64,000 nucleotides of DNA from Nitrospirota bacterium (GCA_021789595.1 JAJYJJ010000002.1:1-64000), one strand, 5' to 3'; numbered from the stretch's first letter, positions 3,237 to 15,991 are shown. A program made the numbers and translations. The notes: generated by a model not told the origin, from the sequence alone.

Positions 3237-3652
3237 TGTTAACAGAAAGTATATTTGTTGACACAGGTGCATGGGTTGCCCTTGCTGATAGTGATGATGC
3301 ATATCACCACATAGCAAAAGGAATATATCCTGCTCTCCTTAAAAGATATAAAACCCTTTTCACCACAAATCTTGTTATTGCAGAAACATATATCTTGCTT
3401 CTCAAGGCATTGGGGCATAAAGGGGCTTTAGAATTTCTTGAAAATATCAATGCCAGTCCAAGAATTGCAAAGTTATACTCTACAGATGATATAGAGAATG
3501 AAGCACTGACGATTCTCAGAAAATACCATGACCACGATCTTAGTTATACAGATGCTGTTAGTTTTGTGGTTATGAAAAGGCATGAGACAAAAAAAGCATT
3601 CACTTTTGATAACCACTTTACAGTTATGAAGTTTACGAGAATTCCTGAGTAA
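3236..3652 (+). CDS. PIN-domain ribonuclease toxin (VapC-like)
   Basis: This 138-residue single-domain PIN protein is expected to be a Mg-dependent RNase. Acidic active-site residues are visible: Asp in FVDTGAWVAL (about 9), Glu in VIAETYILL (about 47), Asp in LSYTDAVSFVV (about 103) and Asp in FTFDNHF (about 122). It follows the RHH antitoxin with a one-base overlap. Only 8 bases separate its stop from the start of the glycosyltransferase-deacetylase fusion, so the TA promoter may also feed the polysaccharide genes. Confidence 0.85.
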   Translation: MLTESIFVDTGAWVALADSDDAYHHIAKGIYPALLKRYKTLFTTNLVIAETYILLLKALGHKGALEFLENINASPRIAKLYSTDDIENEALTILRKYHDHDLSYTDAVSFVVMKRHETKKAFTFDNHFTVMKFTRIPE

Positions 3653-3660
3653 AAATTTGG

Positions 3661-4491
3661 ATGCTCACCATACTCCATACAGAGTCTTCAGAGGGATGGG
3701 GAGGCCAGGAGATAAGGAGTCTTCTGGAATCAAAGGAACTCATAAAGCGAGGCCACAGGGCAATAGTCTTAATGTATCACAATATCGGGATACCACCAGA
3801 AGACGCTGAAATGAGGGGCCTGTATGTAACACCACGCATGTTCGGATTTCAGATGTGGTACCTGAAAGTTGCGGGGTTCAGGGTTGTTTCATTGAAGGAA
3901 ATAGTGCGTTTTATAAAGGGAGAAAGCGCTGATAAAAAACTGGTTGCAATAACCTTCGATGACGGCTACCAGGACTTCTATGATAATGCTTATCCCGTAT
4001 TGAGGATGTATAATTATCCGTCAACGGTCTTTATCGTATCCGATATGGCAGGGAAAGAGAACATATGGGACTCCGAGCGTCTGAAAGTCAGAAAGCGGCT
4101 CCTTGACTGGGACAGGATTCTGGAGATGAAGGACAATGGTGTTGTTTTCGGTTCTCACTCAAAAACCCATCCATCCCTTGTCAGGTCCTCTGCAGAAGAA
4201 CTTGAAGATGAGACGAGAGGTTCAAAGACAGTCATTGAGGAGAGATCGAACTGCCCTGTTGAATTTTTCTGTTATCCTTATGGTGATTATGATGACAGGG
4301 TACTTGATGCAGTCGGACAGGCAGGGTACCTTGCAGCAGTTACTACCAAAAGAGGTTATGTGTACAGGGATGATAATCCGCTTGAAATAAGGAGGATATC
4401 TATTAAATTGACCACACATCCACTATCGTTTTTATATAAGTTGCACTTCAATTCTAAGACTCAAGATGGGTTAAAGGTATGCATATCCTGA
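3661..4491 (+). CDS. Polysaccharide deacetylase fused to a GT4 N-terminal stub
   Basis: Residues 1-36 (MLTILHTESSEGWGGQEIRS...HRAIV) copy the N-terminus of the GT4 at 5588, about 82% identical over 105 nt by hand alignment. From residue 36 onward the protein is a carbohydrate esterase 4 deacetylase: VLMYHNIG, the metal and base motif TFDDG (98-102), SHSKTHP (165-171) and FCYPYGDYD (about 257-265). The nucleotides GTCTTAATGTATCAC at the junction also occur in the deacetylase at 6651. Because that deacetylase directly follows the GT4 at 5588, the simplest origin is a duplicated GT4-deacetylase module that lost most of its GT4. The deacetylase part keeps all motifs and should be active; the stub has no glycosyltransferase function. 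Confidence 0.8.
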   Translation: MLTILHTESSEGWGGQEIRSLLESKELIKRGHRAIVLMYHNIGIPPEDAEMRGLYVTPRMFGFQMWYLKVAGFRVVSLKEIVRFIKGESADKKLVAITFDDGYQDFYDNAYPVLRMYNYPSTVFIVSDMAGKENIWDSERLKVRKRLLDWDRILEMKDNGVVFGSHSKTHPSLVRSSAEELEDETRGSKTVIEERSNCPVEFFCYPYGDYDDRVLDAVGQAGYLAAVTTKRGYVYRDDNPLEIRRISIKLTTHPLSFLYKLHFNSKTQDGLKVCIS

Positions 4492-5588
4492 TATTAAATG
4501 CAGTGAAAGGATGGAGCGGTATAGGCTCGCACAGCATTGAACTTGCCTTGGCATTGAGGGAAAGAGGTCATAACGTAATCCTGTGCTCAACGGAAGTTAA
4601 TATTAAACACGCTGCAGAAAAGTTCGATCTACCTATAAGGGAAATTAAACTAAAGAATCTGGCAGACATCAGGGCTGTATTGAAAATTATAAAGGTAGTA
4701 TTAAAGGAAGACATTAAAGTCATCATAACAAACCTTGGGAAGGAATACTGGCCAGCGACCTTCGTGGCAAAACTCTTAAGATTGAAAATAATCGTTGTCA
4801 GGCATCAGACGAACAGGCTCAAGAGGATTACCTGCTGGCTTCTTGCCAGGCATGTGGACAGGGTCGTGGCTGTAAGCAATGCTGTAACAGGTGCACTGAT
4901 AGCCGGCGGGATACCTGTTGAAAAGATAGATGTAATCCATAACGCGATTAATCTGGAAAGGTTCAATCCCTTCGCTATTGACAGGGATGAAGTCCGAAGA
5001 GAACTTGGCTTAGGAAATAACGATATAGTCGTTGGCACGGCCGGAAGGCTTTATCCTGAAAAAGGCGGATTAGAACTCCTTTATGCCATACATGGCCTTA
5101 TCAGAGAATACCCTTCGCTCAAACTGATGTTTGTCGGTGAGGGGCCGTACAGGGTGACCCTCGAAAGAGAGGCGCAGAGATTATCAATAAACGACAGTGT
5201 CATCTTTACAGGTTTGAGGAAGGATATGGAGCGAATGTATGCTGCTATGGATATATTTGTCCTTCCTTCTACCTGCAAAGAAGCATTCGGTATGGTGCTT
5301 ATAGAGGCGATGGCAATGATCAAACCTGTTATTGCAACATCTGTGGGTGGTATACTGGAGATAATCACCCGTGAGACAGACGGTATTCTTATACCTGCAG
5401 GAGACCATGCTGCTATTGCTAACGCTATAGCCAGAGTTATTAATGACAATGCACTTTCCAAAAGAATTGCTCTGGAGGGCCGCAGGACAGTTCAGTACAA
5501 ATTTTCTGAGAAGGCTATGGGAGACGGTTTTGAAAAGGTACTCAGGGAAATTTTTAATCCTTCCTTGAGGGGAGATAACTGTTTATAA
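4479..5588 (+). CDS. GT4 glycosyltransferase
   Basis: This 369-residue GT-B retaining glycosyltransferase has an N-terminal acceptor domain starting MHILILNAVKGWSGIGSHS with a glycine-rich loop. Its C-terminal donor domain holds GTAGRLYPEKG (about 186-196), FVGEGPYR and the E-x7-E pair E268/E276 in CKEAFGMVLIEAM. The hinge segment VVAVSNAV...VIHNAINLERF is standard for the family. It overlaps the fused deacetylase by 13 nt and the next GT4 by one base, so it belongs to a tightly coupled operon. It probably adds a sugar to lipopolysaccharide or an exopolysaccharide; donor and acceptor are not deducible. Confidence 0.88.
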   Translation: MHILILNAVKGWSGIGSHSIELALALRERGHNVILCSTEVNIKHAAEKFDLPIREIKLKNLADIRAVLKIIKVVLKEDIKVIITNLGKEYWPATFVAKLLRLKIIVVRHQTNRLKRITCWLLARHVDRVVAVSNAVTGALIAGGIPVEKIDVIHNAINLERFNPFAIDRDEVRRELGLGNNDIVVGTAGRLYPEKGGLELLYAIHGLIREYPSLKLMFVGEGPYRVTLEREAQRLSINDSVIFTGLRKDMERMYAAMDIFVLPSTCKEAFGMVLIEAMAMIKPVIATSVGGILEIITRETDGILIPAGDHAAIANAIARVINDNALSKRIALEGRRTVQYKFSEKAMGDGFEKVLREIFNPSLRGDNCL

Positions 5589-6670
5589 TGCTTACTGTAC
5601 TGCATACAGAGTCCTCAACAGGCTGGGGAGGTCAGGAGAACAGAACACTTCAGGAATCAAAGGAGCTCATCAAGCGAGGGCACAGGGCAATAATACTGTG
5701 CCAGCCTGGAAGCGGCCTTGCAAAAAAGGCAGGGGAAACAGGCATACCAACATCTGTTGTGAGAATGCGGAACAATTTCGACCCGGTTGCAATAAATTTT
5801 GTAAGAAGACTGATAAGGAAAGAGAACATCAATATAATCAATACACACAGCTCTAAGGATAGCTGGATTGCAACCATCGGTGCAAGGCTTTCAGGCAGAA
5901 GACATGCGATTGTCAGGACGCGGCATCTTGCCATAGGAATAAAAAAAAGCCTTACCTACACCCTGCTGCCCGATAAAATAGTCACCGTGAGTGAATTCGT
6001 AAGAAGGCTTTTCATCGAGCAGGGAATACAACCTGATAAGGTTGTTACGATTCATAGCGGCATAGACCTACGGGAATTCGATCCTTTAAAGACCGATAAC
6101 ACATTACGAAAAGAGACAGGCATAAGTTCAGCGGCTCCAGTAATAGTGATGGTTGCAATCCTCAGATTTGACAAGGGGCATTACTATTTCGTCCATGCAG
6201 CAAAAAAGGTTCTTAAGAAATTCCCCGATGCTAAATTCTTGATTGTCGGTGAAGGCCCGCAGAGGGCAAATATAGAAGGGTATATTAATGAGTTTGGACT
6301 TAATGGTAATGTGTTGATGCTCGGGCTGAGAGGAGACATACCCAGGATACTTGCATCCGCCAACCTCTATGTCATACCCTCTCTCCGCGAGGGCATGGGA
6401 CAGTCAACAATGGAGGCAATGTCAATGGGGCTCCCTGTGATTGCAAGTAATGTTGGAGGGCTTCCTGAACTCGTTATAGACAATCAAACAGGCATCCTCA
6501 TTCCCCCAAAGGATATATCTGCCCTTGCAGAAGCAATTATCGAACTGCTCTCTGATAAAGAAAAATCAGAAAGGCTTGCCAGATGCGCCCAGCAATCTAT
6601 TAAAGACAACTATGCGATTGAAAAAACTGTTGACAGAACACTAAATCTATATGCTGAATTACTTCAATAG
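5588..6670 (+). CDS. GT4 glycosyltransferase
   Basis: This 360-residue GT-B glycosyltransferase starts MLTVLHTESSTGWGGQENRT, the same opening as the truncated stub at 3661. The donor domain shows MVAILRFDKGHYYF (about 188-201), IVGEGPQR (about 219-226) and the E-x7-E pair E268/E276 in REGMGQSTMEAM. The end overlaps the deacetylase at 6651 by 20 bp. The pair GT4-deacetylase probably acts on one glycan: the transferase adds an N-acetylated sugar and the deacetylase removes the acetyl group (inference from adjacency). Confidence 0.88.
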   Translation: MLTVLHTESSTGWGGQENRTLQESKELIKRGHRAIILCQPGSGLAKKAGETGIPTSVVRMRNNFDPVAINFVRRLIRKENINIINTHSSKDSWIATIGARLSGRRHAIVRTRHLAIGIKKSLTYTLLPDKIVTVSEFVRRLFIEQGIQPDKVVTIHSGIDLREFDPLKTDNTLRKETGISSAAPVIVMVAILRFDKGHYYFVHAAKKVLKKFPDAKFLIVGEGPQRANIEGYINEFGLNGNVLMLGLRGDIPRILASANLYVIPSLREGMGQSTMEAMSMGLPVIASNVGGLPELVIDNQTGILIPPKDISALAEAIIELLSDKEKSERLARCAQQSIKDNYAIEKTVDRTLNLYAELLQ

Positions 6671-11788: not shown

Positions 11789-12919
11789 ATGTTTTACATT
11801 CTACTAACATATTTAGTAAGCCCCGTATTATATCTGTTACTCTTTTTCCGTCAGAGGGATGATGTCAAGAAAATCTTGATAATTCAAACAGCAAAAATAG
11901 GGGATTTAATCTGTTCGACTCCCGTTTTCAGAGCGATAAAGAGAAGATACCCGCATGCTCATATAACAGTAATGGTGAATCCTGTTACAGAGGAATTACT
12001 GGAACATAATCCGCATGTAAATGAAATCATAACTTTGAGAAACGCAGACTATAAAGGACTATCAGGAAAATTGAGGCTGTCTAATTTGATACGAACGGGA
12101 AAATATGACATTGCAGTCTGTCTTAACCCTAATGTACCTTTTGCAGTTGCAACATTCTGGGGACTGGTTCCAATAAGACTATCTGTTATGCCTAATTTTG
12201 CTGGGATTACTTTTAAACTCGCATCAGTATTTTTTACCTATCTGGAAAAACACGTTGAAGGACAATTGGTTATTGAAACCTACTTAAAAATGCTGAAATT
12301 CATCGGTATTGAAAGTAATAATTTAATCAAAGAGGTCTATAAATCAAAAGATGCAGACCAAAAGGCACAACAAATTATAGGAAAAATTGATAAGCCGTTG
12401 ATTGGCATTGCAGTAAGCAGTGGCAATAAGCTAAAGGAATTGGGAGCAGAGAAGATTATTAGACTTATAGATATGCTATTAGATAATATTGACGCATATG
12501 TAGTGCTTATCGGCTCTGAGCAGGATAAAAACACTGCCAATATAATATTAGACGCTGCCAGCAAAAGAGATAGAATCGTTAATGCCACAGGAAAGTTAAG
12601 CCTGAAAGAGCTTCCAGCGCTCATCGAAAGGTTATCCCTCTTTATTGGTGTGGATACAGGGATAACATATATGGCTGATGCGCTATCCATTCCACTCGTC
12701 AATATTGCAGGGCCTGCTGACATGGAAGACCAGAGGCCAACCGGTAACAAAATTGTGATAATTCAAAGAAGAGATTTGTCATGCGTTCCATGCTCCCATG
12801 CCTTTAGAAGCCCGTATAGCTGCAAGCTAAATACCAGAGGATGTATAGAGTCTGTTACAGTAAACGATATAGCTGAAGCAGCAGAAATACTGATGGAATT
12901 ACCATGCCGAAAAAGATGA
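11789..12919 (+). CDS. Glycosyltransferase family 9 (heptosyltransferase-like)
   Basis: This 376-residue GT9 protein has an N-terminal hydrophobic helix (LLTYLVSPVLYLLLFF, about 5-20), then LIIQTAKIGDLICSTPVFRAI (about 29-49), a degenerate donor segment GIAVSSGNKLKEL, and GVDTGITYMADALSIPLVNI (about 289-308). The usual histidine of the GxDTGxxH motif is replaced here by tyrosine (TGITYMA), so activity may differ from canonical heptosyltransferases. The stop overlaps the ATG of a truncated GT9 start (12916) in an ATGA arrangement, showing that another GT9 gene once followed directly. Confidence 0.82.
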   Translation: MFYILLTYLVSPVLYLLLFFRQRDDVKKILIIQTAKIGDLICSTPVFRAIKRRYPHAHITVMVNPVTEELLEHNPHVNEIITLRNADYKGLSGKLRLSNLIRTGKYDIAVCLNPNVPFAVATFWGLVPIRLSVMPNFAGITFKLASVFFTYLEKHVEGQLVIETYLKMLKFIGIESNNLIKEVYKSKDADQKAQQIIGKIDKPLIGIAVSSGNKLKELGAEKIIRLIDMLLDNIDAYVVLIGSEQDKNTANIILDAASKRDRIVNATGKLSLKELPALIERLSLFIGVDTGITYMADALSIPLVNIAGPADMEDQRPTGNKIVIIQRRDLSCVPCSHAFRSPYSCKLNTRGCIESVTVNDIAEAAEILMELPCRKR

Positions 12920-12993
12920 AAAAAATCCTTTTCATACGCCACGACAATATTAGTGACTGTCACTTTACCAAATGCAATTACTTTTGCATTTAG
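12916..12993 (+). pseudogene. 5' stub of a GT9 gene cut off by the DUF4143 cassette
   Basis: ATG 12916 overlaps the previous stop (ATGA) and encodes MKKILFIRHDNISD, the exact opening of a GT9 protein, then runs into unrelated sequence (CHFTKCNYFCI) and a stop at 12991-12993. About 43 nt of it (12916-12958) align at roughly 79% with the beginning of the GT9 frame at 14168. The rest of this gene has been lost or displaced by the adjoining ATPase gene. Confidence 0.6.
12970..12991. repeat. Inverted repeat just upstream of the DUF4143 ATPase
   Basis: AAATGCAA (12970-12977) pairs with TTGCATTT (12984-12991) over a 6-nt loop, 11 nt before the ATPase start codon. It may be an operator, or part of the left end of a mobile cassette. 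Confidence 0.45.
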
Positions 12994-13002
12994 TAGCACT
13001 CT

Positions 13003-14160
13003 ATGCTAACATACCCCCATATGATTCAAAGGGGATTCTGGCTTAAAAAGATAAAGCAGGCGTGGCAGAGGCATTCTGTAGTCTGGTTATGTGGGGTAAG
13101 GCGGGTTGGTAAGACATTTCTATGTAAGAGTCTTCCTGAAGTGGAATACTTTGATTGTGAACTGCCACGGGTGCGGAGGATGATGGAGGAGCCTCAATCC
13201 TTCCTCGACGATTTAAAGGGACGCAAGGTGGTGCTTGATGAAGTCCATCGCCTTGAGAATCCTTCGGAATTGCTTAAAATCGCAGCTGACCATTATCCTG
13301 ACATTCAAATCTTGGCCACAGGCTCATCTACGCTCGGTGTCTCTACAAAATTCCGTGACACACTCACAGGACGTAAGTCAGAGGTATGGCTAACACCTAT
13401 AACCCCGGAGGATATGGCTGATTTTGGCAATACTGACCTGAAACATCGCCTTCTTTATGGAGGGCTTCCTCCATTGTTTTTATCAAAGAGCCTTCCAGAG
13501 CGAGATTTTCAGGAATGGATGGATGCCTACTGGGCCAAGGATATTCAAGAGCTATTCAGATTAGAAAGAAGACACTCTTTTTTGAAGTTTACAGAACTTC
13601 TGATAACTCAAAGCGGTGGTATATTTGAGGCGAATAAATTTGCCCGTCCATGTGAGGTTAGCCGTTCAACAATCTCTAATTATCTGTCTGTGCTTGAGGC
13701 AACTTATGTTGTGCATATTGTAAGGCCATTTAGTTCGCATCGCCCTACAGAGATAGTTTCGGCCCCTAAGGCATATGCCTTTGATACAGGGTTTGTATGT
13801 TATTATCGGGGATGGCATGAACTCAGACAGGATGATCTCGGAAGCCTCTGGGAACATTTTGTATTAAACGAAATACATGCCCATACGCAGTCCCGTAGAA
13901 TCTTATACTGGAGAGATAAGCGAGGTCATGAGGTTGATTTTATACTGGTTAAAAGGCCGTCAGAGCCTACAGCAATAGAATGCAAATGGTCTTCATCGGA
14001 ATTTGACCCGACAAACATCAAGGCATTTAGAAGACAATATCCTCATGGAGACAATTATGTAGTCTCAGCAGATGTAATGAGGAGTTTCTTCAGGACATAC
14101 GATAATATCTCTGTGAGATTTTTAAGCCTGAAGGGACTGATAGATGCTGTGAGGGTTTAA
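13003..14160 (+). CDS. AAA+ ATPase with C-terminal DUF4143 nuclease-like domain
   Basis: This 385-residue protein has Walker A GVRRVGKT (31-38), Walker B KVVLDEVH (75-82, D79/E80), sensor LATGSSTL (about 104-111), then a winged-helix segment (SRSTISNYLSVLE, about 222-234). The C-terminal DUF4143 part has a PD-(D/E)xK-like core: YWRDKRGHEVDFIL and AIECKWS, giving the D-x(n)-E-x-K pattern. These proteins are widespread and of unknown role; some behave as accessory or mobile genes. It is out of place within glycosyltransferases, and GT9 start sequence is present on both sides, which suggests insertion. No partner gene accompanies it. Confidence 0.85.
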   Translation: MLTYPHMIQRGFWLKKIKQAWQRHSVVWLCGVRRVGKTFLCKSLPEVEYFDCELPRVRRMMEEPQSFLDDLKGRKVVLDEVHRLENPSELLKIAADHYPDIQILATGSSTLGVSTKFRDTLTGRKSEVWLTPITPEDMADFGNTDLKHRLLYGGLPPLFLSKSLPERDFQEWMDAYWAKDIQELFRLERRHSFLKFTELLITQSGGIFEANKFARPCEVSRSTISNYLSVLEATYVVHIVRPFSSHRPTEIVSAPKAYAFDTGFVCYYRGWHELRQDDLGSLWEHFVLNEIHAHTQSRRILYWRDKRGHEVDFILVKRPSEPTAIECKWSSSEFDPTNIKAFRRQYPHGDNYVVSADVMRSFFRTYDNISVRFLSLKGLIDAVRV

Positions 14161-14161
14161 A

Positions 14162-15187
14162 CTGACGATTAACAAGGTCCTTTTCATACGCCGCGACAAT
14201 ATAGGCGACCTTATCTGCACAACGCCTGCCATACATGCTGTAAGGCAAAAGTATCCTAATGCAAAAATAGGAATACTGGTCAATAGCTATAATGTTGATG
14301 CGATAATGAACAATCCTGACATTGACGAAGTATATATCTATGAAAAAGCAAAGCATGTTCCAGAAAAAAGCAAACTTCCAGTATGGTGGAATAATTTCAA
14401 AGTCTTAAAAAAAATAAGAAATGAAAAATATGATGTAGCTATTGGCTGTGGCTCCTACTCTCCAAGGCTGGCAAGATACACATTTTTGACTGGGGCAAAG
14501 ACAAGAATCGGCTATTTGCAAAAAGGCATGAAGAAATCAAAATTTTATAACATACCTCTATACGAGCCTGAAGTTCCACTTCATGAGGTTGAAAGGGTTT
14601 TTAATTTACTCTCCCAGCTTGGCATAAATGGATCTCCTTCTTCATTAAAGGTTTTCCCATCCGAAGACGAAGTTAAGAAGGTCAGAGATCTTCTGGATAG
14701 CTCATCAGGTAATAACAAAAAATACCTGATAGCCTTTCATATAAGCAGCAGGCGCCCGGAGAATAGATGGCCTGCTGATAGTTTTATAGAACTTGCAAGG
14801 CTTATTGCCATCCGATATGATGCCAGCATATTGCTTTTATGGTCTCCAGGAAGCGAGAAAAATCCATACCACCCGGGTGACGATGAAAAGGCAGAGATCA
14901 TTATAAACTCAATGAAAACAAACATGGTTGCCTATAAAACGACTCAATTAAAAGAACTCATCGCAGCCCTGAGTCTTGCAGATATTGTTGTTTGCTGCGA
15001 CGGAGGGGCAATGCATATCGCAGCAGCATTAAAAAAACCCATTGTTACAATATGGGGCTTTACAAATCCTGACAGATGGAGGCCATGGGGCACGAGCTAT
15101 ATCATCCTGAAAAACGGCATGGATGCCTCTATGGTGTCTGTGAACGATGTAATCGCTGCTATAGACGCAATGCGTGCAGAGTTGTAA
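14162..15187 (+). CDS. Glycosyltransferase family 9, start codon unusual or lost
   Basis: The GT9 fold begins well before the first ATG (14306): KVLFIRRDNIGDLICTTPAI is encoded from 14174. In frame upstream only CTG (14162) and ATT (14168) are available before a stop at 14150. GAGGG at 14151-14155 lies 6 nt before the CTG, so CTG is the best start and gives 341 residues, the normal length. Later motifs are FHISSRRPENRW (donor site) and CCDGGAMHIAAALKKPIVTIWG. If the CTG is not used, ATG 14306 would drop the first Rossmann strand and probably inactivate the enzyme. The gene directly follows the DUF4143 ATPase. Confidence 0.7.
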   Translation: MTINKVLFIRRDNIGDLICTTPAIHAVRQKYPNAKIGILVNSYNVDAIMNNPDIDEVYIYEKAKHVPEKSKLPVWWNNFKVLKKIRNEKYDVAIGCGSYSPRLARYTFLTGAKTRIGYLQKGMKKSKFYNIPLYEPEVPLHEVERVFNLLSQLGINGSPSSLKVFPSEDEVKKVRDLLDSSSGNNKKYLIAFHISSRRPENRWPADSFIELARLIAIRYDASILLLWSPGSEKNPYHPGDDEKAEIIINSMKTNMVAYKTTQLKELIAALSLADIVVCCDGGAMHIAAALKKPIVTIWGFTNPDRWRPWGTSYIILKNGMDASMVSVNDVIAAIDAMRAEL

Positions 15188-15237: not shown

Positions 15238-15250
15238 TATACTATGACCA
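15238..15250 (+). promoter_or_regulatory. -10-like box abutting the MNT gene start
   Basis: TATACT (15238-15243) touches the ATG at 15244. With a weak TGTAAA 17 nt upstream, transcription would start near 15250, where a second in-frame ATG lies. This would make a leaderless message beginning MATDTYKRL. Evidence is limited to this hexamer. Confidence 0.3.
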
Positions 15251-15609
15251 TGGCTACAGACACCTATAAGAGGTTAGCAAACCCATCCGAGATTATTGCC
15301 CTGGAAAAGATAGCATTGTCTTTATCAGGGCTTTCTGGCGTTGAGAAGGTAGTATTTTTCGGCTCACGCTCACGCGGAGACTTCGGGGGTTCGTCTGATC
15401 TGGACTTACTGATTGTCATTACCGATATAGGGATAAAGAATGTTTTAATAAGAATCCTTCATGATATAGAGCTTGACTATGATGTGCCGATATCTCCTGT
15501 TATATTTACAGGCAAGGAATATGAGATAAATAAAAGGCTCAAGAGCAGTTTCATAGAAAATGTCGAGAGAGAAGGAGTAGTGCTTTATGACCTTAAACAT
15601 AGAGGATAA
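15244..15609 (+). CDS. MNT-type minimal nucleotidyltransferase (antitoxin of MNT/HEPN pair)
   Basis: This 121-residue DNA polymerase beta-like minimal nucleotidyltransferase carries the core FFGSRSRGDFGGSSDLDLLIVI: G40-S41, then D52 and D54 as metal ligands. The third acidic residue is probably in LDYDVPISPVIF (about 80-91). In characterised pairs the MNT protein AMPylates its HEPN partner to neutralise it; here this is inferred from family and order. It overlaps the HEPN gene by 23 bp. Starts at 15244 or 15250 (MATD) are both possible. Confidence 0.8.
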   Translation: MTMATDTYKRLANPSEIIALEKIALSLSGLSGVEKVVFFGSRSRGDFGGSSDLDLLIVITDIGIKNVLIRILHDIELDYDVPISPVIFTGKEYEINKRLKSSFIENVEREGVVLYDLKHRG

Positions 15610-15991
15610 GATTGAACTCTCCCGTTACAGGATAGAGAAGGCAAAGAGGCTTCTTCAGGATGCTTCAATACTCTTTGATAGCGGCTCTTACGAGTCTTCC
15701 ATAAATAGGAGTTATTATGCAATATTAACTGCTTCGAGGGCGTTGTTAATTCTACGGGGGATAGACCCTGAGACCCATGAAGGAGTAAAGACGATGCTTT
15801 CGAAAGAGTTTATACGGACAGGACTTCTGCCTAAAGACTCTGGAGAAACCTTCAGGGGTATTCAGGCAAGAAGGATAGATTCAGACTATGGGGACTATAT
15901 AGAAATAGGGCAGGATGAGGCATCTGATTCTCTAAAGCGTGCACAGGATTTTGTTGAAAGGGCTGAAGGCATATTAAATAGATTAATCTGA
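15587..15991 (+). CDS. HEPN-domain protein (partner of MNT nucleotidyltransferase)
   Basis: This 134-residue all-helical HEPN protein has KAKRLLQDASILFDSGSYES (about 16-35), INRSYYAILTASRALLIL (about 37-54) and the terminal helix ASDSLKRAQDFVERAEGIL. The typical YYAMFHAARALL motif is present, but its histidine is replaced by threonine (YYAILTASR), and I see no Rx4-6H ribonuclease motif elsewhere. It may therefore be a non-nucleolytic member, or toxic by another mechanism. The 23-bp overlap with the MNT gene shows the two are translated together. Confidence 0.78.
   Translation: MTLNIEDKIELSRYRIEKAKRLLQDASILFDSGSYESSINRSYYAILTASRALLILRGIDPETHEGVKTMLSKEFIRTGLLPKDSGETFRGIQARRIDSDYGDYIEIGQDEASDSLKRAQDFVERAEGILNRLI

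Follow-up and report, generated by a model that had tools for sequence, protein, structure and literature searches.

The window (the whole stretch of DNA analysed) comprises 64,000 nucleotides (nt) from a Nitrospirota bacterium (GCA_021789595.1 JAJYJJ010000002.1:1-64000). It includes an exopolysaccharide gene cluster in which a gene encoding an AAA_14-DUF4143 ATPase is located between two genes encoding GT9 glycosyltransferases, GT9a and GT9b. A GT9 start is found on both sides of the ATPase gene. The origin of this arrangement, and the region upstream of the ATPase gene, are the subject of this report. The features concerned are given by position.

11789..12919, + strand: GT9a, glycosyltransferase, upstream neighbour of the ATPase gene (PF01075, E=5e-20). 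The GT9a-GT9b order is also found in locus L027.
12915..12957, + strand: remnant, left copy of the GT9 start (direct repeat D1, 81% identical to 14167-14209). Its position is that of the GT9b start in L027.
12966..13025, + strand: predicted promoter/operator accompanying the ATPase gene (conserved at this upstream position in an alignment of 98 homologous loci, 86 of them non-redundant; sharp left edge, co-varying arms).
12967-12977, 12984-12994 and 12998-13008: half-sites ACCAAATGCAA, TTGCATTTAGT and ACTCTATGCTA, respectively. A degenerate fourth half-site lies over the start codon.
12984-12989 and 13007-13012, + strand: predicted -35 (TTGCAT) and -10 (TAACAT).
13021..14160, + strand: AAA_14-DUF4143 ATPase, 379 amino acids (Pfam; PADLOC PDC-S01; 70-row alignment; AlphaFold2 model).
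14162..15187, + strand: GT9b, glycosyltransferase, full-length open reading frame (ORF) devoid of a standard start codon (PF01075, E=2e-33).
14167..14209, + strand: the GT9 start again, INKVLFIRRDNIGD (right copy), 7 nt past the ATPase stop codon.

The doubled GT9 start and an empty site

The two copies of D1 are 43 nt long and identical at 35 positions, as an earlier note on this DNA, made from the sequence alone, had essentially described. D1 is the sole repeat of its strength across the ATPase stretch (43.7 bits; runner-up, about 24). The stretch bounded by its copies encodes the ATPase alone. In the left copy, an ATG (12916) overlaps the GT9a stop codon (ATGA) and is followed by a reading frame of 14 recognisable codons, MKKILFIRHDNISD. 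The similarity to GT9 ends there and the frame is closed by a TAG (12991-12993); the early end of this gene had been correctly recognised. The second opening had been said to continue to a full gene. The ORF does extend at full length to 15187, but neither ATG, GTG nor TTG is found at its 5′ end, which reads in frame CTG ACG ATT AAC AAG GTC (14162 on). GT9b therefore either uses a CTG or ATT start behind the ATPase stop codon or is impaired. Given this opening (CTG ACG ATT, 14162-14170), GT9b may depend on coupling to the ATPase stop codon, or may be decaying. The GT9b protein is 64-70% identical to relatives encoded by genes without an upstream ATPase gene.

The earlier note had proposed a comparison with relatives lacking the ATPase. 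Such a relative was found. In L027 (genome G016), GT9a (57% identity) directly overlaps GT9b (58%) by four bases (GATTGA), and no ATPase gene lies between them. The left remnant thus most likely marks the former GT9b start. Two possibilities had been put forward, namely a cassette that replaced the body of one gene of a GT9 array and a cassette inserted with duplication of the gene start. The cassette in the array is retained, and of the two possibilities a doubled GT9 start accounts for the locus better than a replaced gene body.

The ATPase and its promoter/operator

According to homology, the ATPase start codon is the ATG at 13021, not 13003; the stop codon is 14158-14160. Residues are counted from Met 13021. 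Pfam matches are AAA_14 (PF13173, E=7e-19), then DUF4143 (PF13635, E=5e-34). The sequence and an AlphaFold2 model (predicted local distance difference test, 88.6; predicted template modelling score, 0.88) point to an AAA+ domain, a winged helix-turn-helix and a PD-(D/E)xK-like domain with conserved catalytic residues. The model includes an AAA+ module, a winged-helix-like stretch (about 184-236) and a nuclease-like domain (250-378); these domain names are our reading of its helices and strands. Walker A (GVRRxGKT), Walker B (DE), the TGSS sensor and GRK are near-invariant in 70 aligned sequences. E304/D306 and E320-C-K322 of the PD-(D/E)xK-like domain are also near-invariant. The best Foldseek matches of the model are archaeal Cdc6/Orc1 and RuvB-type AAA+ proteins (E=6e-7 and 6e-6). 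In these proteins, as in the window ATPase, an AAA+ module is followed by a winged helix. They differ from it by a low global template modelling score (0.2-0.4), an identity of about 15% and the additional PD-(D/E)xK domain of the window ATPase. A sequence search for relatives of solved structure retrieved none.

The protein matches the PADLOC PDC-S01 model PDLC04789 over almost its full length (residues 1-357 of 379, E=1.6e-62). It is classified on this basis as a member of PDC-S01, a candidate single-gene defence family. In the relevant part of a 2026 survey (PMC12988326), PDC-S01, an ATPase fused to PD-(D/E)xK as is the window protein, ranks fourth by frequency among the defence systems of prokaryotes. 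The earlier statement that DUF4143 ATPases have no settled function needs qualifying because PADLOC lists the family as PDC-S01. It holds in so far as the family is catalogued by association and, according to the same part of the survey, validation is pending for most such candidates (PMC12988326). The passages of the survey that deal with PDC-S01 describe neither an operator nor an insertion habit, unlike what was found for the subfamily of the window. A viral origin of the ATPase was rejected (50,697 phage records contain no close homologue, the best match being 29%; no PHROGs match), as was a plasmid origin (all plasmid matches below 60% identity).

An inverted repeat, AAATGCAA-n6-TTGCATTT, is located upstream of the ATPase gene at 12970-12991 (0 matches in 100 shuffles). 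Nearly all members of the subfamily share the block TACYAAACGCAA-n6-TTGCATTTAGTAgcACTATATGCTAnnaTa, followed by TTGCATATGGT covering the start codon. The left boundary of this block is sharp, because the information content of the 86 non-redundant loci is about 0 left of TACYAAACGCAA and high from there through TTGCATTTAGTAGCACTATATGCTA to ATGG. The block reads as a sigma-70 promoter (TTGCAT, 17-nt spacer, TAnnnT; start codon at about +1). Half-sites alternating between ACYAAAYGCAA and its reverse complement overlie the -35, the -10 and the start codon. The arms pair better within than between sequences (0.644 versus 0.603 +/- 0.010; second palindrome, 0.674 versus 0.644 +/- 0.010), which suggests that they changed together, although relatedness among loci can add to this difference. 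The operator is probably bound by the ATPase's own winged helix, leading to autoregulation; the helices and strands modelled by AlphaFold2 at about 184-236 fit this fold.

Of 148 Nitrospirota genomes, 8 contain the operator core, with a single occurrence each; a reversed control gave 0 occurrences. Seven of these eight occurrences are directly upstream of an ATPase homologue. The eighth is solo (L238, about 1480-1560): the operator is intact, the ATPase gene is cleanly absent where L041 and L042 carry it, and both flanks align. This solo operator adjoins a tRNA-Ser gene. In two loci of Poribacteria (L057, L073), the half-sites upstream of the ATPase gene are multiplied, with several TAGTAGCACTATATGC-type repeats in tandem.

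The earlier note had expected homologues to share the upstream hairpin and a right boundary. The hairpin is shared by nearly all close homologues, but corresponds to a promoter/operator and not to the end of an element. No common sequence was found after the ATPase stop codon across the homologous loci, and the right boundary was abandoned. The flanks of other DUF4143 genes, whose collection had been advised, delivered the left operator in close homologues and recurrent direct repeats (see below), but no shared right end. The inverted repeat was also rejected as a transposon end: its spacing is the canonical one of a promoter/operator, and the right side has no partner for it.

Homologous loci and their flanking repeats

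A scan of 84,980 species genomes retrieved 80 loci encoding proteins 62-74% identical to the ATPase, from about 18 phyla. Many of the ATPase loci are contigs from metagenome bins. The subfamily is patchily distributed in Nitrospirota, with a single copy in each of 19 genomes out of 296. The protein tree requires 33 phylum changes (minimum 17), a number affected by the imperfect phylum labels of metagenome bins. Distribution and tree are in favour of horizontal acquisition of the gene.

When 1500 nt were taken on each side, direct repeats of at least 45 bits were found at 22 of 93 ATPase loci versus 4 of 360 random control segments. Inverted repeats were found at 1 of 93 loci versus 2 of 360 controls. 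Since the random segments were drawn from five genomes, all belonging to the phylum of the window, a within-locus control was added. With 600-nt flanks, direct repeats were found at 14 of 85 ATPase loci versus 2 of 214 within-locus controls (p=7e-7). The main argument uses this last comparison; the window's own repeat is under its cut-off. All these counts refer to loci, not to independent events. Repeats of at least 40 bits are found at 19 of 89 non-redundant loci; in seven of them, the right copy begins -1 to 26 nt past the ATPase stop codon. Distant DUF4143 genes have flanking repeats at 8 of 35 loci. The copied stretches are of variable length, from tens to hundreds of nt, and a classical transposon with short target site duplication was rejected for this reason. 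The copied sequences, in many cases the end of a gene, include the following. Gene names other than UvrA and UvrB were read by eye from translations.

L103, L108: 3′ end of uvrA.
L047: 3′ end of uvrB.
L132: 3′ end of a LOG-family-like gene (by-eye reading of the translation).
L055: 3′ end of an acyl-CoA synthetase-like gene (by-eye reading of the translation).
L075: tRNA-like 3′ end (no tRNA called by ARAGORN).
L139: start of a divergent gene.
Window: start of GT9b.

L115, a 4470-nt contig carrying the ATPase gene, is bounded by near-identical direct repeats of 862 nt (1-862, 3609-4470). These may reflect circularity of the molecule, an effect of the assembly or a recent duplication. L115 is included in the 22 of 93 loci and left out of the 14 of 85.

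Similar duplications surround toxin-antitoxin (TA) modules. In Nitrospira, VapBC-type pairs of G351 (L197) and G202 (L212) are enclosed by an intact uvrA and a copy of the uvrA 3′ end. In G320 (L193/L220), a Phd/ParE pair is enclosed likewise, together with another gene. G202 seems to contain two such insertions, one after the other, and another uvrA fragment is found in G092 (L219). Like the ATPase gene, type II TA modules (VapBC, ParE/Phd, PemK) are small stand-alone modules; they were seen between uvrA and a uvrA fragment (L197, L212, L193). They also adjoin the ATPase gene inside some repeat-bounded intervals. Genes found beside it within wider repeats encode PIN and a possible ribbon-helix-helix protein (L055), PIN_3 and a protein with a weak MazE-like match (L045), a helix-turn-helix protein (L053) and PemK (L118). 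Unlike these modules, the ATPase is encoded by a single gene without visible antitoxin partner. Because TA modules devoid of such an ATPase insert likewise at uvrA, a DUF4143 protein is not needed for such duplications.

Mode of insertion

The most probable interpretation (about two chances in three) is that the ATPase gene is a single-gene defence-candidate cassette that carries its own promoter/operator, is autoregulated, was acquired horizontally and was inserted by the host at the GT9a/GT9b border with a long target duplication. The ATPase gene and its operator would arrive through horizontal transfer. They would be inserted at a gene border of the exopolysaccharide operon, most likely through host recombination or repair instead of a cassette transposase (cf. 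the relevant parts of PMC1643837 and PMC3031569). Insertion would duplicate, or bring along, a gene end, here about 43-47 nt of the GT9b start. The target gene would survive because one copy stays complete or nearly so. The ATPase would be expressed from its own promoter and probably repressed by its own winged helix bound to the half-sites over the -35, the -10 and the start codon.

Insertion with long target duplication was described for restriction-modification (RM) genes (Nobusato et al. 2000; Furuta et al. 2010; as reported in passages of PMC3874152 and PMC1643837). As presented in these passages, the unit encodes neither transposase nor integrase, and long direct repeats of target DNA, of variable length (in the order of 100 base pairs), lie on either side of it; the target gene is preserved. 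The same features are found at the ATPase loci, with direct repeats of the target on both sides (43 nt in the window; 14 of 85 loci versus 2 of 214 controls). A transposon or integron cassette would have two conserved ends and a transposase or integrase; here, only the left region is conserved. Unlike RM genes, the ATPase unit consists of one AAA+ ATPase/PD-(D/E)xK gene and its conserved operator. Its flanking copies are diverged (about 75-95%) and were compared without a nearly identical genome pair.

Several observations weigh against this interpretation. At about 80% of the loci, no flanking repeat can be detected, owing to age, to short duplications or to a different insertion mode. The flanking repeats of L104 and L106 are members of dispersed repeat families, and a single insertion may account for both L103 and L108. 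The two GT9 copies of the window are no more similar than the starts of separate GT9b homologues, which are 64-90% mutually identical (window left copy versus L023, 86%). As 81% falls within this range, identity alone is no proof of recent copying. The case for duplication of the GT9 start rests on the syntenic empty site of L027 and on the recurrence at other loci. L027 has the single-target empty arrangement at a protein identity to the window of just 57-58%, and no close relative of the window's genome was found among the genomes compared.

Because the copies have diverged as homologues do and no close relative was found, a foreign GT9b may have arrived with the ATPase gene. In this scenario, which is unlikely but deserves consideration, an incoming operator-ATPase-GT9b segment would have recombined with a GT9 gene, and the copies would be the resident and donor alleles. 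The right GT9 copy has ATT where the left one has ATG, and relative L025 likewise has ATT. In G202, the uvrA fragment is closer to the uvrA end of a sister species (89.7%) than the intact G202 uvrA end is (83.9%; uvrA bodies, 92.5%), and a tree groups the fragment with that species. This looks like replacement of the native end by one brought in from a donor. However, the support for grouping this fragment with the sister species is moderate (0.86), and the comparison is weakened by the faster variation of uvrA ends relative to the body. In G351, the fragment most resembles the uvrA of the same genome (91.4%), as predicted by duplication in place. Furthermore, the copied sequences vary between loci and match the local gene, so that many separate donors would be required.

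The repeat could also be an artefact of a gene family, the ATPase gene lying by chance between two GT9 genes of an array, one of them decayed. The starts of different GT9 genes do reach 80% identity. This explanation is nevertheless improbable, since the left copy overlaps the GT9a stop codon exactly as GT9b does in L027 and flanking repeats recur in unrelated genes around homologues (14 of 85 versus 2 of 214).

A self-mobilising element, suggested in the earlier note, whose ATPase-nuclease would recognise the operator, cut and paste the cassette with a long target duplication, would agree with the almost invariant catalytic motifs, the conserved palindromic left region, the family-wide flanking duplications and the single-gene cassette, but is unproven, not required and highly improbable, given the lack of a shared right end, duplications ranging from tens to hundreds of nt, the single copy of the subfamily per genome, the TA modules that insert likewise at Nitrospira uvrA without such a protein and an operator placed over the -35, the -10 and the start codon, as expected of a regulatory site.

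Insertion of the cassette by the host with a long target duplication is thus preferred. This insertion habit is common to relatives of the ATPase across many bacterial phyla and was earlier known mainly from RM genes. PDC-S01/DUF4143 is among the commonest prokaryotic defence candidates (PMC12988326), yet hardly any literature on its spread or regulation was found. Two rules are suggested. First, the left edge of the subfamily's genes would be marked by a conserved operator, probably bound by the encoded protein itself. Second, these genes would enter genomes with copies of local gene ends, like RM and TA modules. Such copies would let cassettes land in operons while the neighbour gene is spared. 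They also provide a simple handle for spotting recent insertions or losses, and could help to decide whether the copies are the work of the protein or of the host.

Two other observations concern the window. A nucleotidyltransferase and HEPN pair is located directly after GT9b (15244-15991). The nucleotidyltransferase matches PADLOC PDC-S09; a search for repeats flanking this pair found none. In the same cluster as the GT9 genes, the start of a GT4 gene at 5588 (about 35 codons; 5588-5692) is repeated at 3661-3765 (82% over 105 nt). The copy at 3661 is fused in frame to a polysaccharide-deacetylase-like ORF (3661-4491), and another GT4 gene lies between the copies. This pair is a doubled gene start in which no ATPase is involved.

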